A stretch of 64,000 nt of DNA, from NCBI GenBank assembly GCA_040753795.1, contig JBFMDX010000004.1, positions 186,001 through 250,000 of the forward strand, given 5' to 3'. The position numbers and the translations under genes are program-made. The notes beneath the pieces were generated by a model. The model was not told where the DNA came from, did not search any database, and saw only the letters and a list, made by a program, of their open reading frames with translations. Positions 42,120 to 63,836 of the stretch are shown here, one piece after another. This DNA comes from Thermodesulfobacteriota bacterium (lineage in GTDB: Bacteria > Desulfobacterota > Desulfobacteria > Desulfobacterales > Desulfosudaceae). Positions within the stretch are counted from its first letter, which is position 1, and each line of letters starts with the position of its first letter.

Positions 42120-44027
42120 TTGGAACAATTCGTTCTCGGCACGGCCGGCCATATCGATCACGGCAAATCCAGCTTTGTCAAGGCGCTCACCGGCACCGAC
42201 CCGGATCGGCTGGAGGAGGAAAAGCGCCGGGGGATAACCATTGACCTGGGGTTTGCCTCCCTGCGCCTGCCGGGGGGGCAACGGGTCGGTATCGTCGACG
42301 TGCCCGGTCATGAAAAATTCATCAAGAACATGGTGGCCGGGGCGTCCGGCATTGACCTGGTCGCCATGATCATCGCCGCCGACGAAGGCGTCATGCCTCA
42401 AACCCGTGAGCATCTGGACATCTGCACCCTTCTGGGCATTTCCCACGGCCTGGTGGTCCTGACCAAGATCGATATGGTGGATGAGGAAATGCTGGCCCTG
42501 GTCCGGGAAGATATCGCCGATTTCACCCGGGGCACCTTTCTGGACGGCGCGCCGGTCCTGCCGGTTTCCTCCCTGACCGGCCAGGGCGTGGCCGATTTTC
42601 CCCAAATCGTGGCCGACATTGTGGCCAGGATCCCGGAGCGCGCCCAGAACGGTCTGCTGCGCCTGCCGGTCGATCGCGTGTTTTCCATGAAGGGATTCGG
42701 AACGGTCATTACCGGGACGCTGATTTCAGGAGAGATCAAGGCCGGTGAAGGGATCCAGATCTATCCTTCCGACGTTCAGTCCAAGGTCCGCGGGCTGCAG
42801 GTCCATGGTCAACAGGTGGATGCAGCCGGAACCGGCATGCGGACGGCGGTCAACTTTCAGGGAATTGACAAGGAAAATGTTGCCCGCGGCAATGTCTTGA
42901 GCCGGCCTGGCGCCTTGACGCCCAGCTATATGCTGGATGTTTTTTTTAAATATCTGGGCGGAAACGCCAAGGCGCTGAAAAACCGGACGGCGGTACGGGT
43001 ATATTCCGGCACCGGGGAATTTACCGGCAATATTATTCTCCTGGACCGGGATGAACTGGAGCCCGGGGAGAACGCGCCGGTTCAGTTGCGTTTAAAAACC
43101 CCGGTGGTATGCGTCAGAGACGATCGCATTGTCGTCCGCACGCTTTCTCCGGTCAGGACCATCGGCGGCGGCCGCGTGGTCAACCCGGTGCCGCCGAAAC
43201 ATCGCCGCTACCGGCAGGCCCTGGCCGAGGCCATGGAAAAACTGCGCGGAAGCTCTCTGGAAGAACTCATTCTATTTCAGTGCCGGCAGGCCCGTGAACA
43301 GGGCGTCGCTTTTTCCGTCCTGAAAGTCATGACCAACACCAGCGACCGGGTGCTGCAGCAGACGCTGGAAGCGCTGCTGTCGGCCCGTAAGCTTATTCTG
43401 GCGGACAAGGACCGCCGGATTTATGTCCATCATCTGCTGGTGGAGGAGACGGCCCAAACGGTACTGGAGACCCTGCAGCGGTTTCACCAGGACAATCCGT
43501 TGAAAAAAGGCATGTCCCGGCAGGAAATCAAATCCCGCCTGGCCCGGCAGTCCGGGGAAAAAATCGTGGAGCTGGTTTTTATCCGCCTGATGAAGGAAGG
43601 AAAAATCACCCAGGAGGAGGACGTGATCCGGCTGGCCGGACATGCCGTGTCTCTGCCGTCGGCTCATGCCGAAATCCGGCGGAAGGTTCTGGATCTTTAC
43701 AACAGCGCCGCGCTCGCCCCCCCGGTCGTCAAGGAGTTGCTGGCGGAATTCCGCCCGGATGACGCCCGGGCGGTCAAGGAGGTGCTGACGCATCTGGCGG
43801 AAGAAGGCCAGCTGATCAAAGTGAAGGAAGACCTATATTTTCCGGCCGCCGTTATTGAGGAGTTGAAACAGCGATTGATTGATTTTCTGAAAAAAAATGA
43901 GAAAATATCGACGCCGGAATTTAAGGAAATGACAAATGTTTCCAGGAAGTATACAATACCGCTGATTGAATATTTTGACTCCCGCAAAGTGACGATTCGC
44001 ATTGGCGACATGAGAAAGCTCAGATAA
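42120..44027 (+). CDS. selB: Selenocysteine-specific elongation factor SelB
   Basis: 635 residues from TTG 42120 with AAAGGAG at ideal spacing. EF-Tu-like GTPase: GHIDHGKSS (10-18), [25 protein letters not shown]; then domains 2-3 and a C-terminal run of winged helices (from about 370) that binds the SECIS hairpin. Delivers Sec-tRNA to UGA codons. Its position between two UGA-interrupted genes is strong support that both are selenoproteins. Confidence 0.96.
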
Positions 44028-49874: not shown

Positions 49875-50710
49875 TGACAAGACGTCTTTCTAAAGGGCTT
49901 CCGGCCTGCCGGCCCTTGAATCCTGTTCCCCGCCCGGAGCCGGATCCGGCAAGCGTCGGGGGAAAACCTGACCGTTTTATGCGTCTCCAGAAGTATATCG
50001 CTTCAGCGGGAGTCTGTTCCCGCCGGCAGGCTGAAACGTATATCAGCGACGGCCGGGTCGCCGTCAACGGCCAAGTGATCACCCGGATGGGCGTAACGAT
50101 TGACCCGGCCACGGCCACGGTCACGGTCGACGGCCGGGCCGTTGTTTTGGATCGGCCCCCAATTTATATCGCCCTGAACAAGCCGGCCGGGTATGTCAGC
50201 AGCTGCCGGCAACGGCAGGAGAAGACCATTCTGGAACTGGTCGATGTGTCCGAACGGATTTATCCGGTGGGGCGGCTGGACAAGGAGTCCACCGGCCTGA
50301 TCCTGCTGACCAACGACGGCGACCTGCATCTGGCCCTGTCCCATCCGTCGTTTGATCATGAAAAGGAGTACGATATCACGGTGGCGGCGCCCATCTCCGA
50401 CGACGACCTGGCCAAACTGCGCGAGGGCGTCCGGATCGACGGCCGGAAAACCCGTCCGGCAAAAGTGGCCCGGGTTTCGGAACGGCGGTTTCGAATGACG
50501 CTGCTGGAAGGCAGAAACCGGCAGATTCGAAAAATGACGGGCAGCCTGGGCCATCGCGTGGTCGCCCTGAAGCGCTTGAGAATGGGCGGCATAAAACTGG
50601 GAAACCTGAAAGAGGGACAATGGCGCCATCTGACCGACGCCGAACGGAAGTCCCTGTTGAGCCTCACGGGCGCGAAAAAAGATCCTGCGAAAGTGCGGAG
50701 CGGAAATTGA
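49874..50710 (+). CDS. RsuA/RluB-family rRNA pseudouridine synthase
   Basis: 278 residues from ATG 49874, whose A overlaps the argJ stop; the family start MRLQKYIASAGVCSRRQAE is at ATG 49979, so a 35-residue leader may be untranslated. S4 RNA-binding domain, then the catalytic GRLDKESTGLILLTNDG with the conserved Asp and LLEGRNRQIRKM. Modifies a uridine in 23S (RluB-like) or 16S rRNA. Confidence 0.9.
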   Translation: MTRRLSKGLPACRPLNPVPRPEPDPASVGGKPDRFMRLQKYIASAGVCSRRQAETYISDGRVAVNGQVITRMGVTIDPATATVTVDGRAVVLDRPPIYIALNKPAGYVSSCRQRQEKTILELVDVSERIYPVGRLDKESTGLILLTNDGDLHLALSHPSFDHEKEYDITVAAPISDDDLAKLREGVRIDGRKTRPAKVARVSERRFRMTLLEGRNRQIRKMTGSLGHRVVALKRLRMGGIKLGNLKEGQWRHLTDAERKSLLSLTGAKKDPAKVRSGN

Positions 50711-51846
50711 ATTTTTATTTTGCCTGGGCGGAAATTGATCTGACGGCGATCGCCCGCAACGTCCGTTCCTTGAAAAATTTTATCGGCAGCGACTGCCGGC
50801 TGATGGCCGTGGTCAAGGCCGACGGCTATGGCCACGGCATGGGCCGGGTGGCCAAAACCGCCCTTGAAAACGGCGCTTCCGCCCTGGCCGTGGCCAGGAT
50901 CGAGGAAGGCATCGGCCTGCGGGAGATGGGTGTCGCCGCGCCGATCCTGGTACTCGGTTACACCCCGGCGCGGCTCTGCCGGGAGCTGATCGGTCATGAC
51001 CTGATTCAGACGGTCTGGTCGGAAGACGACGCCCGGGCTTTTTCCCGGGAGGCCGCGGCCGCTGGAAGGACGCTGGCCGTCCATTTCAAGGTGGACACCG
51101 GCATGGGACGGCTGGGAAAAAGCCTTGTGTCGGGGGAAACGGCCGAAGCCGTCCGTGAAATGAGGGCCGTCAACGATCTGCCGGGCATCTCCCTTCAGGG
51201 CGTTTACACCCATTTTTCGTCCGCCGACGAGGCGGATAAAACTGGCGCCGCAGGGCAGCTGGCGCTTTTTTCGCGACTGACCGAAGCGCTGCCAGCGGCC
51301 GGGCTGTCTTCACTGCTCCGGCACGCCGCCAACAGCGCCGCCATCATTGACCTGCCGTCCTCTCATCTGGATATGGTCCGGGCCGGCATCGCCATGTACG
51401 GACTTTATCCTTCCGCCGCCGTCAGCCGGCGGGTATCGCTTGAGCCGGCCATGGCGCTGAAAACCCGCGTCATTCAACTCAAGCCGGTTGCGGCCGGAAC
51501 CGCGGTCAGCTACGGAGCCACTTATATCACGCCCCGGGCGACGGTCCTGGCAATCGTGCCCATCGGCTATGCCGAAGGATACAACCGCCTGCTCTCTTCC
51601 CGGGGGCACATGCTGGTGCGCGGCCGGCGGGCGCCGGTGGTCGGCCGTGTCTGCATGGACCTGACCGTCCTCGATGTCGGCGGCATTGAGGGGGTCCGGG
51701 TCGAGGACGAGGTGGTGGTCTTCGGCCGGCAGGGGGAGGAGCAGATCACCGTGGACGAGATCGCCGCCGCCCTGAACACCATCAACTATGAAGTCGTCAC
51801 CGCCGTCACCGACCGCGTCCCGCGGGTGTACTCCGAAAAAAAATGA
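50707..51846 (+). CDS. alr: Alanine racemase
   Basis: 379 residues from TTG 50707, overlapping the preceding stop (TTGA) with GGAGCGG upstream; an open frame runs to 50620 but without family sequence. PLP Lys37 in AVVKADGYGHG, HAANSAAI, MVRAGIAMYGLYP, VSYGATY with the Tyr base region and GRVCMDLTVLDV. Supplies D-alanine for peptidoglycan. Confidence 0.95.
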   Translation: MNFYFAWAEIDLTAIARNVRSLKNFIGSDCRLMAVVKADGYGHGMGRVAKTALENGASALAVARIEEGIGLREMGVAAPILVLGYTPARLCRELIGHDLIQTVWSEDDARAFSREAAAAGRTLAVHFKVDTGMGRLGKSLVSGETAEAVREMRAVNDLPGISLQGVYTHFSSADEADKTGAAGQLALFSRLTEALPAAGLSSLLRHAANSAAIIDLPSSHLDMVRAGIAMYGLYPSAAVSRRVSLEPAMALKTRVIQLKPVAAGTAVSYGATYITPRATVLAIVPIGYAEGYNRLLSSRGHMLVRGRRAPVVGRVCMDLTVLDVGGIEGVRVEDEVVVFGRQGEEQITVDEIAAALNTINYEVVTAVTDRVPRVYSEKK

Positions 51847-51986
51847 TTGTCATCCGGCCGGCCGTCTGATAAAAAAATAACTGCTTGTGATGGTCTTTTT
51901 TCCCCGGCTCTGAGAGCTCGCAACCGTTTTCCCGCGGTACATTAATTCGGTTTCGGAAACAGCGGACAACATACAGGAGAAGAACG

Positions 51987-53267
51987 ATGACGAAAAACGC
52001 CACGCTGATCATTGACGGCCAAAGTTATGAATTGCCGATTGTAGAGGGCACCGAAGGCAAGCCCGGCATCGACATTCGCAAACTTCGCGATCTCACCGGT
52101 CATGTCACCTACGACCCCGGTTTCAGCAATACCGCCGGCTGCAAAAGCGCCATTACCTACATGGACGGCAAGGAAGGGGTTCTCCGTTACCGCGGCTATC
52201 CCATCGAGCAGCTGGCTGAAAGCGCCTGTTTCGTGGACGTGTGCTATCTGCTGTTAAACGGCGAACTGCCGACCCAGACGGAACACAACCGCATGAGCTG
52301 CATGCTCAATGATCAGTCCCTGGTTCATGAAGACATGCAGATATTCTTTCAGAATTTTCCCCGGTCTTCAAACCCCATGGGTATTCTGTCCTCCATGGTC
52401 AATGCCTTGAGAAATTTCTATCCGGAACTGATGGACAGCGACGAAGCCATGGAAATCACCTTTCTGCGCTTGATTTCCAAGGTCCGGACCATGGCCGCCA
52501 TGTCCTACAAGATTTCCCGGGGTCACAAGGTGGTTTACCCCCGGCCGGATTACACCTATTGCGCCAATTTTCTGAACATGATGTTCGACACCCCGGTCAT
52601 TCCCTACACCCCCCGGTCGGAATTCGTGGACGCCCTGAACACCTTCTGGGTGCTGCATGCCGATCATGAACAGAACTGCTCCACCTCCACGGTCCGCGGC
52701 GTGGGCAGCGCCCGGGCCAACATTTACGCCGGTATCTCGGCCGGCATTTCGGCCCTGTGGGGGCCGCTCCACGGCGGTGCCAACCGGGCGGTGGTGGAGA
52801 TGCTGGAGGATATCCGCAAGAACAACGGCGACGTCCGCCAGGCCGTGGCCCGGGCCAAGGACAAGAGCGACCCCTTCCGGCTGATGGGATTCGGTCACAG
52901 TGTTTATAAAACCTACGATCCCCGCGCCCGGATCATGAAAAAGATGTGCGACCGCATGCTGGCCGTGTCCAAAATGGATGATCCCCTGGTGGATATCGCC
53001 CGCCGCCTGGAAGAGATCGCCCTGGAGGACGAATATTTCAAGGATCACAATTTATATCCCAATATCGATTTTTACAGCGGTCTGGTGCTGCGCACCCTGG
53101 GTATTCCCATCACCATGTTTACGGTCATGTTTGCCATCGGACGGCTTCCGGGATGGCTTGCCCACTGGAAGGAACTGTGGGAGGATCCGGAAAAGAAACT
53201 GTTTCGCCCGCGCCAGGTTTACACGGGCAGGCTGAAGCGGGATGTCCTGCCCAAGCAGGAGCGGTAA
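51987..53267 (+). CDS. Citrate synthase (type II/GltA-like)
   Basis: 426 residues with ACAGGAG upstream. N-terminal TLIIDGQSYELPIVEGTEG extension typical of hexameric type enzymes, catalytic His in WGPLHGGANRAV, His in MGFGHSVYKTYDPRA and the Asp in NIDFYSGLV. Condenses acetyl-CoA and oxaloacetate. Gene is monocistronic in appearance; priA follows after 34 bp. Confidence 0.95.
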   Translation: MTKNATLIIDGQSYELPIVEGTEGKPGIDIRKLRDLTGHVTYDPGFSNTAGCKSAITYMDGKEGVLRYRGYPIEQLAESACFVDVCYLLLNGELPTQTEHNRMSCMLNDQSLVHEDMQIFFQNFPRSSNPMGILSSMVNALRNFYPELMDSDEAMEITFLRLISKVRTMAAMSYKISRGHKVVYPRPDYTYCANFLNMMFDTPVIPYTPRSEFVDALNTFWVLHADHEQNCSTSTVRGVGSARANIYAGISAGISALWGPLHGGANRAVVEMLEDIRKNNGDVRQAVARAKDKSDPFRLMGFGHSVYKTYDPRARIMKKMCDRMLAVSKMDDPLVDIARRLEEIALEDEYFKDHNLYPNIDFYSGLVLRTLGIPITMFTVMFAIGRLPGWLAHWKELWEDPEKKLFRPRQVYTGRLKRDVLPKQER

Positions 53268-53301
53268 TTCCGGCCGGATTCGTCCTTTACGGTAACGAAA
53301 A

Positions 53302-55374
53302 ATGTTCTCGACCCCGAACACACCGACCCCCATCGACGTTCCGGTCAACGGCTGTGTTGACGTGGCGGTCTGCCTGCCGGTCTTCAGCACCTATACCTAT
53401 CGGGTGCCGGCCGATCTGGCCGCGCAGGCGGTGCCGGGGAAACGGGTGACGGTTCCTTTCGGCAAGCGTTCCGCCACCGGCTATATTCTCGGTCCGGCTG
53501 GAGAAACGCCGGACGGTGAGATCAAGCCCATCCTGGAGATCCTGGACATCCTGCCCCTTTTCCCGGACGCCATGACCGGGTTTTTCCGCTGGATCGCCGA
53601 CTATTACCTCTACCCCCTGGGGGAAACCATCAAGAACGCCCTGCCGGCGGCAACCGGCGCCAAAGCCACCAGCCGGGTCACAAAGAAAAACCGGGACGCT
53701 GTTGGCGAGGTCATTGCCCCGGACACTCCGCCGGAGCTGACGCTTCAACAGCGGCAGGTGGTCACGGACGTGGCCGCGCGGATCGGCGACGGTTTCTATT
53801 CCTGCCTGCTGGCCGGCGTCACCGGCAGCGGTAAAACCGAGGTCTACATGCGCCTGGCCGAAGCCGCCCTGGAAAAGGACCGCGACGCGCTGATCCTGGT
53901 GCCGGAAATCGCCCTTATTGTCCAGGCGGAACGACGATTCAAAGCGCGTTTCGGAGACCGGATCGCGGTTCTCCACAGCAGCCTCTCGGCCACCGAGCGC
54001 CGCAACCAGTGGATGCGGATCGTCCGTGGAGAAGTCCGCCTGGCCATCGGCACCCGCTCGGCCATCTTCGCGCCGCTCCCGTCACCGGGAGTGATCATCG
54101 TCGACGAGGAACACGACACCTCCTACAAACAGGAGAACGGCCTGCGCTACAATGCCCGGGACCTGGCCCTGGTGAGGGGAAAGCAGTCCGGCGCGGTGGT
54201 GGTTCTCGGTTCGGCCACGCCTTCCATGCAGTCGGTTTACAATGCCGCTACCGGTAAGTTTTCCGCCGTCTATTCCCTGGACACGCGTATCAACAATCAG
54301 CCGCTGCCCGAGATCACGGTGGTGGACCTGCGCCGGTATGAGGACCGGCGTGGCCTGGAGAGGTTCATTACCGATGAACTGAGGCAGGCCATGCAGGAGA
54401 CCCTGGCCGCGGGCAACCAGGTGCTGCTGTTTTTAAACCGCCGCGGGTTCGCCAGTTTTCCGGTCTGCGCCGCCTGCGGTCAGGCCGTTAAATGCAAAAA
54501 TTGCGACATTACCATGACCCTGCACCGGGCCGGCAACGCCTATCGCTGCCACTTCTGCGGGTTTTCCCGGCCGCTGACGGCCGGGTGCGCCCAGTGCGGT
54601 TCCACGTCCATAAAACAGCTCGGCCTGGGAACGGAAAAGGTGGAGGAGGCTGTCCGCAAACTTTTTCCCGAGGCGGCCGTGGACCGGCTGGACCGGGATA
54701 CCACCGTCCGCAAAGGCTCCGTGGCCCGGATATTAAAGGATGTCAGAAAGGGGAAAACCGACATTCTCATCGGCACCCAGATGGTCGCCAAGGGGCACGA
54801 TTTTCCCGGTATCACCCTGATCGGCATTATCTGCGCCGATATGTCCCTCAATTTTCCCGACTTCCGGGCCGGGGAGGTGACCTTTCAGCTGCTGGCCCAG
54901 GTGGCGGGCCGGGCCGGCCGGGGAAACGATCCCGGCCGGGTTATCATGCAGACCTACAACCCCGACCATTTCAGTATCCAGACGGCCCGGATGCAGGACG
55001 TGTCGGCTTTTTATGAGAAGGAGATCGCCTTCCGGAGGCAATTGTCCTATCCGCCTTATGCCCGACTGGTTCAGCTCCGCATTTCGGGCGGCGACAGCGA
55101 TAAAACCAGGGCCCAGGCCCAGCTGGCCGGACAACGGTGCGCCATACTCAAACAAAGTGATTTGGCCCGGTTCGGCTCGGTGGAGATCCTCGGGCCGGCC
55201 GAAGCGCCTATTTACCGGCTGGCCGGCCGGTTCCGGTGGCAGATTCTGTTAAAGGCCCGCTCCGCCAACGTGCTCAACGGATTTGTGGCCTCCCTGCTCA
55301 CTGAAAGCGGCGCCGCCATCCGCCAGCATGGGGTTCGCCTGGTGGTGGATGTTGACCCTTATGTCATGATGTAG
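53302..55374 (+). CDS. priA: Primosomal replication helicase PriA
   Basis: 690 residues. N-terminal 3'-binding domain (VCLPVFSTYTYRVPADL), Walker A GVTGSGKTEVY, DEEHD box, GSATPSMQS, the eight-Cys zinc module CAACGQAVKCKNC...CHFCG...CAQCG, and helicase motifs GTQMVAKGHDFPGITL and LLAQVAGRAGRG. Restarts stalled forks. Full length. Confidence 0.96.
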   Translation: MFSTPNTPTPIDVPVNGCVDVAVCLPVFSTYTYRVPADLAAQAVPGKRVTVPFGKRSATGYILGPAGETPDGEIKPILEILDILPLFPDAMTGFFRWIADYYLYPLGETIKNALPAATGAKATSRVTKKNRDAVGEVIAPDTPPELTLQQRQVVTDVAARIGDGFYSCLLAGVTGSGKTEVYMRLAEAALEKDRDALILVPEIALIVQAERRFKARFGDRIAVLHSSLSATERRNQWMRIVRGEVRLAIGTRSAIFAPLPSPGVIIVDEEHDTSYKQENGLRYNARDLALVRGKQSGAVVVLGSATPSMQSVYNAATGKFSAVYSLDTRINNQPLPEITVVDLRRYEDRRGLERFITDELRQAMQETLAAGNQVLLFLNRRGFASFPVCAACGQAVKCKNCDITMTLHRAGNAYRCHFCGFSRPLTAGCAQCGSTSIKQLGLGTEKVEEAVRKLFPEAAVDRLDRDTTVRKGSVARILKDVRKGKTDILIGTQMVAKGHDFPGITLIGIICADMSLNFPDFRAGEVTFQLLAQVAGRAGRGNDPGRVIMQTYNPDHFSIQTARMQDVSAFYEKEIAFRRQLSYPPYARLVQLRISGGDSDKTRAQAQLAGQRCAILKQSDLARFGSVEILGPAEAPIYRLAGRFRWQILLKARSANVLNGFVASLLTESGAAIRQHGVRLVVDVDPYVMM

Positions 55375-55402
55375 TAATTTGCTTAAAAAGGACGCAAACG
55401 CG

Positions 55403-55897
55403 ATGCGCATAGCCGTCATGAGCGATACCCATGACCAGATTCCCAATCTCCGCCGGGCCATTGCCGAAATCCGGACCGCCGACTGCGGCCTGATCATTCA
55501 CTGCGGAGATTTCGTGGCGCCGTTCATGTTAAAGGAACTGGAGGCGTCCGGGCTGCCGGTTCACGGTGTTTTCGGCAACAACGACGGGGATCAGTATCTG
55601 CTGACCCGGCATTCCCTGACCCTTTACCGGAACATCACCCTGCACGGCCATTTCGGGCAGGTGGATGCCGGCGGACGCCGCATCGCTTTTATGCATGACG
55701 GCGTGGTCGCCGACGACATTGCCGCCGCCGGCCGCTTTGATGTGGTATGCTATGGCCACTATCATGTGTACGCCCAACGGAAAATCGGGAAAACCCTGGT
55801 GGTGAATCCCGGAGAAATGCTGGGCAAGGACGATGTGCCGGGCTTCTGTATCGTGGATACGGAAACCCTGGAGCCCCGGCGGGTGACCCTGGCCTGA
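55403..55897 (+). CDS. YfcE/MJ0936-type metallophosphodiesterase
   Basis: 164 residues from ATG 55403 (AAAAAGGA upstream). Metal ligands: SDTHDQ, HCGDFV, FGNND, HGHF and CYGHYHVY, the binuclear calcineurin-like set. Small bacterial phosphodiesterases of this group hydrolyse model or cyclic diesters; physiological substrate unknown. Confidence 0.92.
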   Translation: MRIAVMSDTHDQIPNLRRAIAEIRTADCGLIIHCGDFVAPFMLKELEASGLPVHGVFGNNDGDQYLLTRHSLTLYRNITLHGHFGQVDAGGRRIAFMHDGVVADDIAAAGRFDVVCYGHYHVYAQRKIGKTLVVNPGEMLGKDDVPGFCIVDTETLEPRRVTLA

Positions 55898-55931
55898 CGG
55901 GTTATAGAAATAATTTTTACAGGAGCGCATT

Positions 55932-56855
55932 ATGTGGAAAATGAGGCTGGTCGGTTGTTTGGTCCTGTTGCTTGTAATCGGCACTTATGCTGGCGCGGAG
56001 TCTGTGGAAATGACGTCCGAAACAATGAAGAAGGTCGGTCCGGCGGTGACCCTTCCGGCGATTACCGCGCCCTCATCCGACGCGGCCAAGGAGGCTGCCG
56101 CGCCGGTCACGGAAAAGGACCGGAAGGCCGTCACGCCGCCTCCGGAAGCAGCCGTTAGCGCACCCCCGACCGGTCGGCCCATCGCGATCGTTGAAAACAC
56201 CCTCTACACTTTTCCCGCGGTTATGGAGGGGGAAGAAGTGGTGCATGATTTCGCCTTTCGAAACGCGGGAGATGCCCCGCTGATTATCGAACAGGTCAAC
56301 GCCGGGTGAGGGTGCACGGCCGTCTCGTTTACGAGATCCATCCCCGCCGGCGGCGTGGGAACCGTGACCATCAAGGTAAATACCAGCGGATTCGGAGGAA
56401 AGACGATTACCAAGGTTGCCAAGGCAAAAATCAATGATCCCTTGAAAAAAACGATCGATTTGACGCTAACCGGGACGGTGGAATCTTTCGCCGAAATCGT
56501 ACCGCCGGTAGTCCGGTTTAACCTTCCGGTCGGCACCGCCCAGCGGCAGGAAGTACGGGTGATCCCCGGAGAGAAAAATGTTTTTAAAATCACCGGCTCC
56601 AGCGCCCGGGAAGGGAAAAACATCCGCTTTGAGGTAAAAGAAATTACCCTTGATACCGGGCGGACCGGTTATCTGGTGGAAGTGGAAAACACCAAGAAAG
56701 ATGCCGGCGCCTATCAGGACATGATTTTTCTGAATACGGACAGCAAGAAACGGCCGCAACTGACCATCCGGGTTCATGGCTCCATTTATGATGAGTCGTT
56801 ATTAGAAGAACAGAAAAAACCCGACCAGACGAGAACACCCGATGTCACCCATTAA
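55932..56855 (+). CDS. DUF1573 protein, candidate selenoprotein (UGCT motif)
   Basis: 307 residues if the TGA at 56307-56309 is read as Sec126. Signal peptide (about 1-22), Pro/Ala-rich linker to about 80, then a DUF1573 Ig-like domain (VVHDFAFRNAGDAPLIIEQVNAG-U-GCT...IPAGGVGTVTIKVNTSGF) and a second beta domain. The UGA replaces the first Cys of the family's CGCT motif, the frame continues for 546 bp, and the following gene starts 14 bp inside this frame. A hairpin at 56322-56337 has SECIS-like placement, and selB is in the window. A nonsense mutation of a Cys codon is the alternative. Confidence 0.82.
56322..56337 (+). promoter_or_regulatory. Candidate bSECIS hairpin
   Basis: GTCTCG-TTTA-CGAGAT: five Watson-Crick pairs plus a closing G-U, 18 nt between the UGA and the loop. 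Opening the top pair gives a loop starting GU, as in known SECIS loops. Confidence 0.65.
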
Positions 56856-57459
56856 AATCGTTGCCTTTGACTGCGACGGGGTCCTGTTTGACACGGTTGA
56901 GGCCAACCGGGCTTACTATAATTGCATTCTGGCCCGGATGGATCTGCCGGCGCTGACGGATGAACAGTTTCTTTATGTTCAGATGCACACGGTGGAGGAG
57001 GCCCTGATCTATCTTTGCGGCGCGGAAAACCTGGCCCAGGCCCATGCCCATCGCCGGCAGGTCAGTTATCTGCCGTTTATTTCACACATGAAGAAAGCAC
57101 CGTTTCTGGAGGATCTGCTGGACCGCCTGTCCGGCCGGATGCATACGGCCATCGCCACCAACCGTTCCAACACCATGAACCGGGTGCTGGAGGAGCACGG
57201 CCTGGCTGACCGGTTCGAACTGGTGGTGACGGCCCTGGACGTGATGCGCCCCAAACCGGCGCCGGAGCAGCTTTTAAAAATTCTGGACTTTTTTAACGCC
57301 CGACCTGACGAGATGATGTACGTGGGGGACTCGTCTCTGGATGAAATGGCGGCCCGGTCGGCCCAGGTTCCCTTTATCGCCTTTAACAACACCGCCTTGT
57401 CCGCGGACTATCATGTCACGGGCATGCGGGAGGTCGGGGCGATTCTGGGGCTGGAATAA
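56842..57459 (+). CDS. HAD-superfamily phosphatase (phosphoglycolate phosphatase-like)
   Basis: 205 residues. Motif I VAFDCDGVLFDT (D8, D10), motif II ATNRS, motif III Lys in MRPKPAPEQ and motif IV YVGDSSLDEMAA. Cap type C1, typical of Gph/PpaX-like enzymes hydrolysing small phosphate esters. Its start overlaps the end of the DUF1573 frame by 14 bp, implying coupled translation. Confidence 0.92.
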   Translation: MSPIKIVAFDCDGVLFDTVEANRAYYNCILARMDLPALTDEQFLYVQMHTVEEALIYLCGAENLAQAHAHRRQVSYLPFISHMKKAPFLEDLLDRLSGRMHTAIATNRSNTMNRVLEEHGLADRFELVVTALDVMRPKPAPEQLLKILDFFNARPDEMMYVGDSSLDEMAARSAQVPFIAFNNTALSADYHVTGMREVGAILGLE

Positions 57460-57489
57460 GCAAGGCTTACAATATTTCAGGAAGGACCA

Positions 57490-58944
57490 ATGAGATATCT
57501 GTCCGCAATTATAGCCCTGCTGATGACGGCGCTGACAATGAACGGCCGGTGTACGGCCGCGGCTGAAACGGCGCCGAAGGTCTATATCATCGACATTGCC
57601 GGCGATGTTGCCCCCGGTATGGCGGCCTTTGTCAAGCGGGCCCTGGACGACATTCCCAGGGCCGAAGGCACCGTCATCGTGTTTGAGATGGATACCTTCG
57701 GAGGCCAGGTGGACGCGGCTTTGACCATCGTGGATCTCATCGTCGAGACGGACAAGGGGCAGACCATCGCTTTTGTCACCAAGAAAGCCATTTCCGCCGG
57801 CGCACTGATCGCGCTTTCCTGCGACCGGCTGGCCATGAAACCCAACACCACCATCGGCGACTGCGCGCCCATCATGATCGGCGGTGAAGGTCCGGAAATG
57901 CTGGGGGAAAAATTTCAGTCGCCCCTGCGGGCCAAGTTCCGGTCCCTGGCCAAGAAAAACGGATATGCCGAGGTTCTGGCCGAAGCCATGGTCACGGCCG
58001 AGATGGAGGTTTTCCGGGTGGTGAGGGACGGTAAGACCGTTTACATGGACGCCCGCGAGTTCGAGGAGCTCAGCGAAAAAGAGAAGGCGGCGGTTACTGA
58101 AAAAAAGACAGTGGTGGCCAAGGGTGAGCTGCTGACCATGGACGACGTGGAGGCCCGGGACCTGGGGTTTTCCCGGCTGACAGCGGACAATGCCGAGGAA
58201 ATGCTCAAGAACCTGGGCATCACCGGCCGTGACATCATCCGGGTGGAGCAGAAGTGGTCCGAAGGACTGATGCGATTTATCGGTACCATCGCGCCGCTGT
58301 TGATGCTTATCGGACTTGGCGCTGTTTATACGGAGATCAAGGCCCCCGGTTTCGGCGCCCCCGGGGTCATCGGCATCATCTGCCTGGCGCTGTTCTTCAT
58401 GCATCAGTATACCGTGGGCCTGGCCGATTACACCGAAATGCTGATCATCGCCCTGGGGTTTGTGCTCATCGGGCTGGAGATTTTTGTGCTGCCCGGTTTC
58501 GGCATCGCGGGTATTGTCGGCCTGATTTGCATCATCACCGGCCTGGTGCTCTCTTTGCAGGGATTTGTCCTGCCCGATCCCGCCCTGCCCTGGCAGACGG
58601 AACTGATGACCGCCAACCTGATCCAGGTCTTCGGATCGATCATCCTGGCCTTTGTCCTGGCGCTGGTGATGCTGCGCTACGTGCTGCCCCGGGCGTCGGC
58701 GGCCGGGCCTTATCTGGATACGACCCTGCGCGACTCCCACGCCGACTCCCTGGCCAACACCGGTGTGGCTATTGGGGATAGAGGCGTGGCCGTTACCCCC
58801 CTGCGGCCGTCGGGTAAAATGAAAACCGGTACCGGCGTTTATGACGTGGTCACCCAGGGCGATTTTCTGGACCGGGGAACGCCGGTGGTCATCACCGCCG
58901 TTTCCGGCAACCGGCTGATTGTCACAAAGGAGGCAAGGGAATGA
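57490..58944 (+). CDS. NfeD membrane serine protease (ClpP-class)
   Basis: 484 residues. Signal peptide (1-25), ClpP-like protease domain with KVYIIDIAGDVAPGMAAFVKRAL, EMDTFGGQVDAAL and catalytic Ser in KKAISAGALIAL, then four to five transmembrane segments (about 260-400) and a C-terminal NfeD OB-fold (GVAVTPLRPSGKM). Long NfeD proteins pair with SPFH proteins and cleave membrane substrates. Overlaps the next gene by 4 bp. Confidence 0.92.
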   Translation: MRYLSAIIALLMTALTMNGRCTAAAETAPKVYIIDIAGDVAPGMAAFVKRALDDIPRAEGTVIVFEMDTFGGQVDAALTIVDLIVETDKGQTIAFVTKKAISAGALIALSCDRLAMKPNTTIGDCAPIMIGGEGPEMLGEKFQSPLRAKFRSLAKKNGYAEVLAEAMVTAEMEVFRVVRDGKTVYMDAREFEELSEKEKAAVTEKKTVVAKGELLTMDDVEARDLGFSRLTADNAEEMLKNLGITGRDIIRVEQKWSEGLMRFIGTIAPLLMLIGLGAVYTEIKAPGFGAPGVIGIICLALFFMHQYTVGLADYTEMLIIALGFVLIGLEIFVLPGFGIAGIVGLICIITGLVLSLQGFVLPDPALPWQTELMTANLIQVFGSIILAFVLALVMLRYVLPRASAAGPYLDTTLRDSHADSLANTGVAIGDRGVAVTPLRPSGKMKTGTGVYDVVTQGDFLDRGTPVVITAVSGNRLIVTKEARE

Positions 58945-59423
58945 ATCCATTGCTGCTGGCCGTTCTTCTGCAGCTTCTGGCGGTGGCGGTCCTGATTACC
59001 GAGGTCATCATCCCTTCCGGGGGCCTGCTGGGCATTCTGGCGGCCGGGCTCATCGGCTATTCGCTCTATTCGGTTTTTACGGAAGTTTCTACGAATACCG
59101 GCTATCTGTTTCTGGTCGTTGACGTGGTGACCCTGCCGGTCATCTTCCTGGCTGGGCTTAAACTCCTGGCCAAATCTCCGGCCACGCTCCGGAAGGATCT
59201 GTCCACCGCCACCGGCGTGACCTCCCAGGCAGCGGACCTGGAAGCCTATCTGGGGAAAGCGGGGGTCACCGTCACCAATCTGCGGCCTTCCGGAATCGCG
59301 CTGATAGAGGGAAGGCGGCTTGACGTGGTCAGTCGAGGAGAATACATCGAAAAGGATGCCCCGATCGTTGTGTCGGCGGTCACGGGCAACCAGATCATTG
59401 TCAAAATTATGCCTCGTTCGTAG
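58941..59423 (+). CDS. Short NfeD-like membrane protein
   Basis: 160 residues: two or three N-terminal transmembrane segments (about 3-70), then an OB-fold domain with [28 protein letters not shown]. Resembles the C-terminal half of the preceding protein, so probably an ancient duplication. Links NfeD to the flotillin encoded 44 bp on. Confidence 0.9.
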
Positions 59424-59467
59424 AGCGTATTCAACCCATAACCTTATTTTTAATTCAGGAGAACGCC

Positions 59468-60454
59468 ATGCAAATGTATATTCTTGTTTTTTTGATAATC
59501 GCCGCCATCATTCTGTTTTTCTTTATCGGCTCGGCCATTTCCCTGTGGATCCAGGCCCTGGTCTCCGGCGCTCATGTCGGACTGCTGAACATCGTCTTCA
59601 TGCGGTTCAGGAAAGTGCCGCCCAAGCTGATCGTGGTCTCGAAAATCATGGCGGCCAAGGCCGGTCTTGAAGTCACCACCGACGAACTCGAATCCCACTT
59701 TCTGGCCGGCGGTAATGTCAGCCGTTTGATTCAGGCCCTGATCGCGGCGGACAAGGCCAAAATCGAGCTGAATTTCAACCGGGCCGCGGCCATTGACCTG
59801 GCCGGCCGGGACGTGCTGGAGGCGGTGCAGATGAGCGTCAATCCCAAGGTCATCGAAACCCCCATGATCGCGGCCATGGCCAAGGACGGCATCCAGCTGC
59901 AGGCAGTGTCCCGGGTGACCGTTCGGGCCAACATCGACCGGCTGGTGGGCGGCGCCGGTGAGGAGACCATCCTGGCCCGGGTCGGGGAAGGCATCGTCAC
60001 CACCATCGGTTCGGCCGAATCTCACAAGCATGTTCTGGAAAATCCCGATCTTATTTCCAAGCGGGTTCTGGACAAGGGGCTGGATTCCGGCACGGCCTTT
60101 GAGATTTTGTCTATCGATATCGCCGACGTGGACGTGGGCAAGAACATCGGCGCCGAGCTGGAGACCGACCGGGCCGAGGCCGACAAGAAAATCGCTCAGG
60201 CCAAGGCCGAGGAGCGCCGGGCCATGGCGTTTGCGCGAGAGCAGGAAATGAAGGCGCAGGTGGTGGAAATGCGGGCCAAGGTGGTGGAGGCCGAGGCGCA
60301 GATTCCACTGGCCATGGCCGAGGCGTTCCGCAAGGGGAACCTGGGCATTATGGACTATTACCGCATGAAAAACATCATGGCCGACACGGACATGAGAGAG
60401 AAAATCGCCGCCGGCCCTGAAGGCAAGGGCGGCGATCCCTCCAAAGGCAGGTAA
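59468..60454 (+). CDS. floA: Flotillin-like protein FloA
   Basis: 328 residues with TTCAGGAGA upstream. N-terminal membrane hairpin (about 4-28), FloA-type SPFH domain ([20 protein letters not shown]...[28 protein letters not shown]) and a Glu/Ala coiled coil (about 225-290). Organises membrane microdomains and oligomerises as a ring. Partner of the two upstream NfeD proteins. Confidence 0.94.
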
Positions 60455-60459
60455 TAGTC

Positions 60460-61101
60460 ATGGATATGGATACGCTGATTACAGTCGTTTTTGTGGCGGT
60501 GATTATCGCCTTTCAGTTGTTCGGCTCGATAGCCGGCCGTCTGCTGAAGCAGGGGCGGTCCGCGCCGGGTCAGTCCGAAAAAAAAGAAGGACTGTTGACC
60601 CGGGTCGGCCGGGAAATCCAGCGAGCCATGGAGGAGGCGGCCGCCAAGCAGCGGGAGGCTTCCCATGATGACGCGCCGCCGGACCGGGTGAGGGAAGAAG
60701 AGAAGACCGTCGTTGATGAAGGGCCGGGGAAAAAGCCGGCCCCGGCCACACGACGTCCGGCGCCCAGGCGAACCGCGCCCACGCGGCCGGCGATTAAAAA
60801 ACCGGAAAGGCGTACTCCCGCGGTATCAGCCCCGTCCGTCGCCCGGTCGGTTGTTAGGAAACAAGAAAAGCCTGCTGCCGTTGAATCGGTCCAGGAGGAC
60901 AAGGCCCTGATGGCGGATATCCGGCAGGGGCTGCTGGAAGCTGCGGCCCCGGACAAGCCCGGCGTCAGTCCAGCGATGACGGGCCAAGACGGCCCTGCGC
61001 TGGCGGGGATCGAACCCGGGAATGGGTACGAAGCGGATGACCTGCGCCGGGCCGTGGTCTGGTCGGAAATCCTCGCCCCGCCGGTGGCGTTGCGGGAATA
61101 A
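60460..61101 (+). CDS. Membrane-anchored disordered hypothetical protein
   Basis: 213 residues. One N-terminal transmembrane segment (about 5-25, VVFVAVIIAFQLFGSIAGRL), then a charged Pro/Arg/Ala-rich disordered region and a short conserved-looking end (DDLRRAVVWSEILAPPVALRE), a pattern common in small proteins of NfeD/flotillin operons. Starts 5 bp after floA, so very probably part of the same operon. No enzymatic domain. Confidence 0.7.
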   Translation: MDMDTLITVVFVAVIIAFQLFGSIAGRLLKQGRSAPGQSEKKEGLLTRVGREIQRAMEEAAAKQREASHDDAPPDRVREEEKTVVDEGPGKKPAPATRRPAPRRTAPTRPAIKKPERRTPAVSAPSVARSVVRKQEKPAAVESVQEDKALMADIRQGLLEAAAPDKPGVSPAMTGQDGPALAGIEPGNGYEADDLRRAVVWSEILAPPVALRE

Positions 61102-61123
61102 GGGCGGTAGGGGAGGTCGCCTG

Positions 61124-61151
61124 GTAGGGGCACGGCCCGCCGTGCCCCTAC
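61124..61151. repeat. REP-like perfect hairpin
   Basis: Twelve-bp stem GTAGGGGCACGG/CCGTGCCCCTAC with 4-nt loop between convergent genes. Confidence 0.8.
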
Positions 61152-61177
61152 GTCTCGGCATGTCCGCACAGAGACCC

Positions 61178-61774
61178 TTAAGCCGCTTTTCCCGCCGCCG
61201 CAAAGCCCAGATCAAAGGCCTTCAGGTTGATATCGACCGTGGATTTCTTGGTGAAATCGGTGATGGCTTTGCGTACGATTTCAGGGGTGATCGGCAACAC
61301 CCCGGTGTGAATCAGCGCTCCCAGCAGCACCATGTTGACCGACAGGGGACTGCCGGCTTGGGCGGCCAGCCCGGCGGCGTCGATGGCCACCAGTTTCGCG
61401 GTTTTTTCCGCCAGCAGAGACTTGATTTTTTCCACCGGCGGGTAAACGCCTTTGCCGATGGCCGCCGTAAACGGCGGCATGGGCGCCGTGTTGGTGACGA
61501 CCACGCTGTCGGTGTTGCATCTGGCCAGGGCCCGCAGGGCCTCGGCCGGTTCAAAGGCCAGCAGTACGTCGGCGCAACCGTCGGAAATGATGGTGCTGTG
61601 AGCGTCGCCGAAAACCAGGGAGGACTCCACCACGCCGCCCCGCTGGGCCATGCCGTGAATCTCGCTCATTCGCACAGGTATATTGGCCAGCATAGCCGCT
61701 TCCGCCAGCACCTTGGAGGCCAGCAGGTTGCCCTGCCCGCCCACCGCCACGATGATCAACCGCTTGATATCCAC
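61178..61774 (-). CDS. iorB: Indolepyruvate:ferredoxin oxidoreductase, beta subunit
   Basis: 198 residues from GTG 61774, placed 6 nt after AAGGAG; a TTG at 61780 is too close to that site. Gamma-type ketoacid oxidoreductase domain: RLIIVAVGGQGNLLASKVLAEAA, MAQRGGVVESSLVFGD, ADVLLAFEPAEALRA. Works with IorA to oxidise aryl pyruvates to aryl acetyl-CoA with ferredoxin. Separated from iorA by a 180-bp palindrome. Confidence 0.93.
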   Translation of the reverse strand: MDIKRLIIVAVGGQGNLLASKVLAEAAMLANIPVRMSEIHGMAQRGGVVESSLVFGDAHSTIISDGCADVLLAFEPAEALRALARCNTDSVVVTNTAPMPPFTAAIGKGVYPPVEKIKSLLAEKTAKLVAIDAAGLAAQAGSPLSVNMVLLGALIHTGVLPITPEIVRKAITDFTKKSTVDINLKAFDLGFAAAGKAA

Positions 61775-61794
61775 ATTCAACTCCTTTTCCGCAG

Positions 61795-61974
61795 ATAATG
61801 CCCGGAGATGGTTATTGAGCGACCCTGATTGTTTTCGGGGGAGAATTCAGCAACGGCCCCGGCGTTAAAAATTTCTCGCTGTCTGAGGGCGAAGCCCGAG
61901 TTCGAGAAATTTAGCCGGGGACTTTGCTGAATCCCGAAAGCAATCGGTCGCGAAAAAACATCTCCGGGCATTAT
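61795..61974. repeat. 180-bp palindrome between iorA and iorB
   Basis: Outer arms ATAATGCCCGGAGATG (61795-61810) and its exact inverse (61959-61974), middle arms GAATTCAGCAA/TTTGCTGAATC and CCCCGGC/GCCGGGG, inner AAATTTCTCG/CGAGAAATTT, and a central GGGC-GAA-GCCC. Nearly the whole gap folds on itself. MITE-like, or an attenuating/processing structure in the ior message. Confidence 0.85.
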
Positions 61975-61979
61975 CCCCA

Positions 61980-63836
61980 TTACTCCTTTACCGGCACAAT
62001 GGCGTGTTCCGGGCAGATCTGGGCGCAGACCGCGCACCCCACGCACAGCACCGGATTGATGCGCACCCGGTTGTCCGGGTCAATATAAAAGGCCGGGCAG
62101 GCGAATTCATTAATGCAGGTGCGATGATTCTTGCACCGGTCGCTGACATGGAACACCCGGTTGGATTGCTGCTTCAGGCTTTTGGCCTTGAGCACGCAGA
62201 CTTCCCGGGCGATGACCACCGACACGCCGGGATAGGCCACGGCTTCCTTTATGGCTTCGATGCTTTTCTTCAGGTTGTAAGGCTTGATCACGGCCACGTG
62301 GCCGACCCCGATTCCCCGGACCACATTCTCGATGGAGACCCGGTTGTACCCGGGAAAGTTCAGTTCGGCCATGTCCACGCCGGGATGGGGCTGATGGCCG
62401 GTCATGGCGGTGGTGCCGTTGTCGAGAATGACCAGGGTAAAGTTGTGGTTATTGAAAACGCCGTTGATCAGGGCCGGGATGCCGGAATGGAAAAAGGTAG
62501 AGTCCCCGATCAGGGCAACGACTTTCTGGTTGGACGCCCGGGAAAAGCCGCTGGCCGTGCCCACGGACGAGCCCATGCAGATGAGAAAATCACCCATGGC
62601 CACCGGCGGCAGAAACCCCAGGGTATAGCAGCCGATATCCGTGGGAAAGATGGTTTCGGCCGGGTTGACGGCCTGCTTGATGGCGTAAAAGGTAGCCCGG
62701 TGGGAGCAGCCGGGACAGAGATTGGGCGGCCGCTGGGGGATTTCCGGAACCCCGGCCGGGTCCACGGGCCTGGCCGGATCGTATTTCAGCCCGAAAAACC
62801 CGGCCATCACCCGGGCCACGGCCTGGGGATCATATTCGGACAGCCGGGAAAACAGACCCTCGCCCTTGCCGGCGATGGCCGGGCAGAGGCAGGCTTCGGC
62901 GGCCATGGCTTTGACCGCTTCTTCCATGACCGGCTCGCCCTCTTCGACGATGAGTACCTTTTCCTTTGATTGAAGAAAATCTTTTATAATGGCATCCGGC
63001 ATGGGATGGGAAAACCCGATCCGCAGCACGGCGATCCGTTCTGCCGCTTTGAGTTCCGCCAGGGCGTCCAGCACGTAGCTGTGGCTGACGCCATTGCAGA
63101 TGACGCCGAATTGTCCGGCGCCGGAAACAAAGTTGTAGGCCGAGGCATTGGAAAGTTTCCGGGCTTCCTCCAGGTGGGCCAGCAGTTTTACGTGCAGTTT
63201 GCGGGATACCGCCGGAACGGTGACGTAATTAAACGGGTCCTTGACAAACCGGCCTTTGGACTGGCGCGGCTTAAGCTTGCCCGGGGTGACCGGGCCGGTG
63301 GAATGGTTGATGCGGGTGGTGGTCCGCAGGATGACCGGTTCCTGCAGGGCCTCGGAAAGGTCAAAGGCGTAACAGGCCATTTCCCGGGCTTCGGCCACGG
63401 ACGAGGGCTCCAGCACCGGCAGGCCGGATAGCTTGCCGTAGTAACGGTTGTCCTGCTCGTTCTGGCTGGAGAACATGTGCGGGTCGTCGGCCGAGAGGAT
63501 CACCATGCCGGCCTTGACGCCCACGTAAGCCAGGGTCATGAGGGTGTCGGCGGCCACGTTGACGCCGACGTGCTTCATGACGCACATGCTGCGCACCCCG
63601 CAGTTGGCGGCCGCGGCCGCCACTTCCATGGCCACTTTTTCGTTGGTGCTGTATTCAAAGTAAAAGTCGTCGACCTGTTTGGAAATCTGGAAAAAACTCA
63701 GCGAGATTTCCGACGAGGGGGTTCCCGGATAGGTGGAGGCGAAGCCCACGCCGGCTTCCAGGGCGCCCCGGGCAATGGCCTCATTGCCGAACAGCAGGGT
63801 CTCTTTTCCGTCCATGTCCGTCAGAAGTTTGTGCAT
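61980..63836 (-). CDS. iorA: Indolepyruvate:ferredoxin oxidoreductase, alpha subunit
   Basis: 618 residues from ATG 63836 with GGAGAG upstream; ATG 63854 gives six more residues. Pyrimidine domain (GNEAIARGALEAGVGFASTYPGTPSSEI), CVMKHVGVNVAADTLMTL, TPP-binding core (LCPGCSHRATFYAI, PTDIGCYTLGF, IGDSTFFHSGIPALINGVFNNHNFTLVILDNGTTAMTG) and a C-terminal double ferredoxin domain (CKNHRTCINEFACPAF, CVGCAVCAQICPEHAI). Upstream gene of the iorAB pair; supports aromatic amino acid fermentation or, reversed, synthesis from aryl acids. Confidence 0.95.
   Translation of the reverse strand: MHKLLTDMDGKETLLFGNEAIARGALEAGVGFASTYPGTPSSEISLSFFQISKQVDDFYFEYSTNEKVAMEVAAAAANCGVRSMCVMKHVGVNVAADTLMTLAYVGVKAGMVILSADDPHMFSSQNEQDNRYYGKLSGLPVLEPSSVAEAREMACYAFDLSEALQEPVILRTTTRINHSTGPVTPGKLKPRQSKGRFVKDPFNYVTVPAVSRKLHVKLLAHLEEARKLSNASAYNFVSGAGQFGVICNGVSHSYVLDALAELKAAERIAVLRIGFSHPMPDAIIKDFLQSKEKVLIVEEGEPVMEEAVKAMAAEACLCPAIAGKGEGLFSRLSEYDPQAVARVMAGFFGLKYDPARPVDPAGVPEIPQRPPNLCPGCSHRATFYAIKQAVNPAETIFPTDIGCYTLGFLPPVAMGDFLICMGSSVGTASGFSRASNQKVVALIGDSTFFHSGIPALINGVFNNHNFTLVILDNGTTAMTGHQPHPGVDMAELNFPGYNRVSIENVVRGIGVGHVAVIKPYNLKKSIEAIKEAVAYPGVSVVIAREVCVLKAKSLKQQSNRVFHVSDRCKNHRTCINEFACPAFYIDPDNRVRINPVLCVGCAVCAQICPEHAIVPVKE

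Follow-up and report, generated by a model that had tools for sequence, protein, structure and literature searches.

Does the DUF1573 gene at positions 55932–56855 of the window (the whole 64,000-nucleotide stretch of a Thermodesulfobacteriota contig analysed here) represent a broken reading frame, or is the in-frame UGA that interrupts it read as selenocysteine (Sec)? We conclude that this seemingly broken gene very probably encodes an exported protein with selenocysteine. Its features are as follows.

55932–56855, + strand: DUF1573 (OS_HP2-type) gene with a single in-frame UGA, 307 residues with readthrough; PF07610 62.2 bits, NF041425 121.9 bits
55932–55997, + strand: signal-peptide-like N-terminus, approximately residues 1–22, from a by-eye reading of the translation
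56244–56246, + strand: codon of a conserved His, 21 residues before the Sec and kept in relatives
56307–56309, + strand: UGA, predicted Sec codon (residue 126), first residue of the (U/C)GC motif
56313–56315, + strand: codon for the motif's second, conserved Cys
56322–56337, + strand: hairpin GTCTCG-TTTA-CGAGAT, core of a predicted bSECIS, from folding; pairing conserved in relatives, weak for the window copy alone

Translation of the frame with TGA as a residue confirms the single interruption that the original prediction had placed at the leading Cys of CGCT in DUF1573, with the UGA as residue 126 in the context VNAG-U-GCTAVSF. The part 3' of the UGA (56310–56855) is 546 bp long including the stop codon and shares 14 bp with the next gene, which starts at 56842, just as had been described, and the start of the protein, judged by eye, resembles a signal peptide, in keeping with the proposed export. 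Ten UGA-interrupted frames are found in the window by a simple scan, and 55932–56855 is the only one that appears selenoprotein-like by eye. Gene callers without Sec handling would end such genes at the UGA.

The family itself is not new. The full protein matches the NCBIfam model NF041425, "OS_HP2 family (seleno)protein", with 121.9 bits and its domain part with 123.4 bits (curated cut-off 100), as do all 58 aligned members, and its 62.2 bits against PF07610 exceed the gathering cut-off of 26.1 bits. DUF1573 is a protein of unknown function according to Pfam, and the original prediction implied that no DUF1573 selenoprotein had been described; this does not hold, as NF041425 and three papers already list one. 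A table in PMC9312934 gives DUF1573 (pfam07610) as a UGC selenoprotein, citing its reference 63 (Zhang and Gladyshev 2007), the same entry is found in PMC13188914, and PMC2398784 lists OS_HP2 (pfam07610) with the motif UxC and the numbers 2, 2 and 354; the entries concerned in these three papers give no function for it, and the terms OS_HP and DUF1573 were not found in the main text of PMC5029168. The UGA of the window gene lies at the first residue of U-G-C, agreeing with the printed motif, and nothing separates its protein from OS_HP2 (NF041425), with which it shares both the domain and the Sec position. The window gene is another member of the known OS_HP2/DUF1573 selenoprotein family, and what is new here is the spread of the Sec form in the order, the UGA forms in Planctomycetota, the gene order with a HAD hydrolase, the hairpin, and the Sec/Cys sister genes; a limited search, confined to open-licence papers, brought up nothing in print on the near-universal Sec form in the order or on the Planctomycetota copies.

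The evidence for Sec begins in the source genome, a 4.75-Mb draft assembly of 41 contigs with 99.76% completeness, where PF07610 is found at four places. Besides the window gene there is a second UGA gene on contig 7 (L001 1129–1923), with the UGA at the same codon (KDVKAGUGCTAVSF), a Cys paralogue on contig 5 (L003 1351–2154, VQTYCGCVSASF), and a UGA-free copy on contig 1, where no C-G-C motif was seen. The neighbourhood of the contig 7 gene is unlike that of the window gene, with an adjoining CcdA/DsbD_TM gene (L001 422–1102) and an ABC transporter nearby.

The comparison was extended to 96 genomes (that of the window, two others in its family, and the remainder from its order), of which 89 have PF07610 and 85 have a copy with one TGA by the tally of matches listed. 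From stretches around part of the matches listed for the order and the rest of the phylum we took 144 motif sites, leaving out domain matches with E-values above 1e-10 and those without the motif, whose third residue was required to be Cys. The codons at these sites (104 TGA, 34 TGC and 6 TGT) all fall in one column, so the homologue alignment bears out the placement of Sec at the first Cys of CGCT: every one of the 104 UGA genes has it at the first motif residue (U-G-C in 102, and U-S-C and U-A-C in one each). The TGA sites comprise 84 in the order, two of them in the source genome, and 20 elsewhere in the phylum, and the Cys sites number 19 and 21, respectively; the 40 Cys sites among 144 are not a frequency, because Cys matches were fetched on purpose. 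Likewise the second Cys is kept at all 144 sites, but the site filter itself required that Cys. The frame downstream of the motif is intact and conserved in relatives. Close relatives with TGC, which the original prediction had named as evidence against itself, do occur as a minority, as the 40 Cys sites (TGC or TGT) illustrate, but with intact frames and in a pattern of Sec/Cys exchange on the tree, not of decay.

On that tree (157 rows, built by a quick method), in which 63 of 152 inner branches are open with support under 80 and gain is not separable from loss, the Sec/Cys label needs 17 changes, eight of them forced by well-supported branches, compared with 35.6 when labels are shuffled. 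The window gene groups as sister to L003, the Cys paralogue from the same genome (SH-aLRT 94), and further Sec/Cys sister pairs are L136/L075 (from one genome), a tandem pair in L086, L137/L115 (from one genus), and L135/L083. In L086 the Sec and Cys DUF1573 copies lie in tandem in one genome. L137, which has TGC, has kept a foldable version of the hairpin found in its TGA sister L115, as a codon change in the recent past would predict; these same-genus orthologues may, from their sequences, reflect just such a change between Sec and Cys.

The hairpin GTCTCG-TTTA-CGAGAT is present where originally noted, but the 18-nt spacing given for it is the distance from the UGA to the apical loop, with only 12 nt between the UGA and the hairpin itself. 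The window hairpin alone is not significant, with z = +0.17 against dinucleotide shuffles when 50 nt are folded, and in a second test, in which nucleotides 11–40 after the codon were folded and compared with synonymous recoding, it gives z = −1.2 (p about 0.10); the UGA paralogue of the same genome is strong by this measure (z = −3.7). The expectation of a conserved hairpin in relatives is borne out for the family. Mean z under synonymous recoding is −2.52 at the 104 UGA sites and −0.73 at the 40 Cys sites (Mann-Whitney p = 5e-12, a value that is too small because related sequences are not independent), and z falls below −1.64 at 79/104 and 7/40 of them, respectively. Among 83 co-linear UGA sites an eight-pair stem is 70% paired, compared with 33–41% when the partner is slid and with 44% (maximum 48%) in 500 synonymous recodings; all five core pairs are formed in 52 of these sites, and two core pairs switch between TA and CG (36 and 35 sites for one, 17 and 49 for the other). 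As read from these alignments, the hairpin after the UGA is conserved in the family with compensatory changes beyond coding constraint, and a bSECIS-type hairpin just after the UGA is a property of the family, the window copy being weak on its own. A search of window positions 50000–62000 with Rfam gave five matches at E-values up to 10, none of them above the gathering score.

The source genome has the full set of tRNA-Sec (75.1 bits, with agreement from ARAGORN), SelA (602.6 bits), SelB and SelD (360.3 bits; contig 2:321613–322539, L306), and the SelB gene lies within the window.

42120–44027, + strand: SelB, selenocysteine-specific elongation factor; TIGR00475 371.9 bits

The SelD gene has an in-frame UGA of its own (GAGUASKL) and SelD is probably itself a selenoprotein, which by homology indicates Sec use of UGA elsewhere in the source genome too. 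SelB presence was tried as a discriminator of UGA and Cys genomes and rejected, since full SelB is absent in 8/60 genomes with a TGA copy and 9/51 without in the phylum draw (p = 0.60, among the matches listed). Among the 17 phylum-draw genomes without full SelB, tRNA-Sec does separate the two groups (Fisher p = 0.002): it is present in all eight genomes with a UGA DUF1573 (71.7–77.1 bits) and in two of the nine with no TGA among the copies listed, and the other seven score 50.8 bits or less, which we take as cross-matches to other tRNAs.

Two explanations would remove the selenocysteine altogether. The UGA could be a real stop or a sequencing error in a truncated or split pseudogene, to which the weak hairpin of the window copy lends something, but the UGA occupies that one column in 104 genes, drawn from many genomes, and is repeated in a second copy in the source genome, with the downstream frame conserved, and we regard this as highly improbable. 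Some known genetic codes reassign UGA, and a changed code or a suppressor could insert another residue such as Trp or Cys; ordinary window genes end in UGA, however (e.g. 55379–55897), and the full Sec machinery is present, so that such recoding is equally hard to credit. The reading of UGA 56307–56309 as a Sec codon is strongly supported by the comparative sequence evidence, namely the UGA at the same codon in the paralogue, the single column shared by 104 of 104 UGA genes, the conserved hairpin, and the complete machinery.

What such a protein does is a separate matter, for which we turned to the predicted fold. AlphaFold2, run on 58 aligned sequences with the domain part of the window protein first, gives a model of two beta-sandwich domains (mean pLDDT 94.3, pTM 0.78), all beta except for one short helix near the C-terminus, with the motif at the bend between strands 34–41 and 45–50. 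Among solved structures the best matches are Ig-like, VesC (6bqm; Z 11.8, rmsd 2.3 over 98 residues) and Vpr (8jmw; Z 10.7, rmsd 2.4 over 99 residues), followed by the pilus chaperones YadV (Z 9.0) and CsuC (Z 8.7), and ciliary or CEP192 domains match both halves of the model with large rmsd. A thioredoxin fold can be dismissed given this confident Ig-like model; nDsbD is not among the fold matches listed and may still match beyond them. The best matches in a sequence search of the PDB are to troponin I, which we take as chance. The His 21 residues before the motif is found in 90% of UGA members and 80% of Cys members, and an Asn and a Gly between the His and the pair and an I-P-x-G turn after the pair are also conserved.

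Several known groups resemble the window protein to different degrees. Cys DUF1573 proteins (PF07610) share the domain and C-G-C, with Cys replacing Sec and the hairpin on average absent. The HYDIN/VesB/CFA65-like Ig, ASH and choice-of-anchor D domains (PF22544, NF012200) have a similar beta sandwich and match more weakly, at 35 bits, and 2qsv, the best-aligned solved case that also matches by sequence, is without the Cys pair where aligned. Protein disulfide isomerases (PDIs) have a thioredoxin fold and CXXC, whereas the window protein has a predicted Ig-like fold and U-x-C; the likeness lies in the proposed C-G-C chemistry only and not in membership, the potential of a CGC peptide (−167 mV, a peptide value from older work) being near the −180 mV of the PDI motif (PMC4316792).

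The genes surrounding the window gene are arranged in the order PriA, YfcE, DUF1573, HAD, two NfeD-type genes, and FloA, and those adjoining it closely are listed below.

53302–55374, + strand: PriA gene, upstream, with PriA domains; same family near 39/84 order-level UGA loci
55379–55897, + strand: YfcE-type metallophosphoesterase gene, upstream; TIGR00040 83.6 bits
56842–57459, + strand: HAD hydrolase gene, sharing its first 14 bp with the end of the DUF1573 gene; PF13419 92.7 bits

Directly downstream of the HAD gene, at 57490–60454, are the two NfeD-type genes and then the FloA flotillin gene. The same HAD family is beside or near 63 of the 84 UGA sites in the order and 4 of the 20 elsewhere, and 3 of 19 and 0 of 21 Cys sites, respectively; for PriA the corresponding numbers are 39/84, 0/20, 3/19 and 0/21, and short contigs lower the counts for both families. 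No redox partner gene adjoins the window gene, and none of the genes in the order given above names one. The neighbour survey took in as many as five genes either side of the 144 sites, with frames from a simple ORF caller, which small or interrupted genes can escape. CcdA was considered as a general electron donor and set aside, with a CcdA-like protein at just 2/144 sites (the contig 7 locus and L152), and the one neighbour matching a thioredoxin-motif regular expression, beside the Cys gene L137, is in a spurious-looking frame.

With moderate confidence, we favour the interpretation that the window gene product is an exported, Ig-like, OS_HP2-type DUF1573 selenoprotein with a U-G-C redox pair, a function we infer; the redox role suggested in the original prediction is thereby kept as a best guess. 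SelB with Sec-tRNA would bind the hairpin and insert Sec at residue 126, and the exported protein would fold as two Ig-like beta-sandwich domains, the first of which would present U-G-C at the bend between two strands. The pair could then cycle between a selenolate plus thiol and a strained selenenylsulfide, and may reduce or rearrange disulfides, or reduce peroxidic oxidants, outside the cytoplasm; the Cys paralogues would probably perform this reaction too, at a lower rate or in different conditions. We favour a redox role because only the first Cys of CGC is exchanged, with the second Cys kept, and Sec fixed at that first Cys points to the pair as the probable active site and opens its function to testing. 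Counted against this explanation are the weakness of the window copy's hairpin alone, SelB not separating UGA from Cys genomes, the non-thioredoxin fold, and the absence of an adjacent redox partner gene.

Two further interpretations accept the selenoprotein and differ in what the motif is for. U-G-C, perhaps with the conserved His, might bind a soft metal or metalloid rather than take part in thiol redox chemistry, since a short U-x-C pair and a His could serve as ligands, the domain is a beta sandwich and not a classical redox fold, and the gene neighbours name no redox system. Sec replacing Cys is nonetheless typical of redox-active Cys, and here only the first Cys is exchanged, so we consider metal binding unlikely while giving it some weight. 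A selenenylsulfide with a structural or regulatory part in a binding or scaffold domain, like the Ig-like ASH or choice-of-anchor domains, seems to us rather improbable; the closest folds are indeed Ig-like domains without catalytic roles, and the choice-of-anchor D model is also matched by 37 of the 58 members, but a purely structural bond leaves the retention of Sec in most copies of the order (85/96 genomes) unexplained. Extending the favoured redox reading, we suggest only tentatively, as a doubtful generalization, that there may be an exported redox class built on an Ig/ASH-type beta sandwich with a U-G-C selenenylsulfide, with Sec in most of the order, often adjacent to a HAD phosphatase, and with Sec and Cys copies coexisting in some lineages for different conditions.

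Cultured carriers of the UGA form (Desulfosarcina, Desulfobacter, Desulfospira and Desulfatitalea), together with the Sec/Cys sister genes, offer natural material on the benefit of Sec. Scanning one genome per species with a DNA pattern derived from sequences of the order gave at least 119 matches; 117 of these are UGA-bearing DUF1573 genes, and the two others, in Nitrosovibrio, are unrelated to DUF1573. The UGA DUF1573 matches listed comprise 88 from Desulfobacterales, 17 metagenome-assembled genomes (MAGs) titled Deltaproteobacteria, two Desulfobulbales, eight Planctomycetota MAGs, one Bacillota-titled MAG, and the Olavius algarvensis Delta 4 symbiont. Named carriers include Desulfosarcina cetonica JCM 12296, D. 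alkanivorans PL12, D. widdelii PP31, Desulfospira joergensenii DSM 10085, Desulfatitalea alkaliphila M08but, Desulfobacter latus AcRS2, and D. vibrioformis DSM 8776.

The Planctomycetota-type UGA copies (L190, L205, L229, L235, L237, L244, L257, L258 and L281) come from MAGs with Planctomycetota or Planctomycetia titles, apart from L229, which is titled Bacillota and resembles the Planctomycetota copies in sequence. The Bacillota-titled record is among the eight of these nine in which SelB is over the cut-off. In a draw of 199 Planctomycetota genomes PF07610 is present in 154 and TGA copies in at least seven, three of which were already known as carriers before the draw, and Cys is thus the rule there; SelB is found in 7/7 genomes with TGA copies listed, compared with 134/199 overall (p = 0.098). 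In the Planctomycetota-type copies a near-identical stretch follows the UGA and could form a hairpin. Among the Cys-type copies, L140 has CFC instead of CGC and lies on a long branch.
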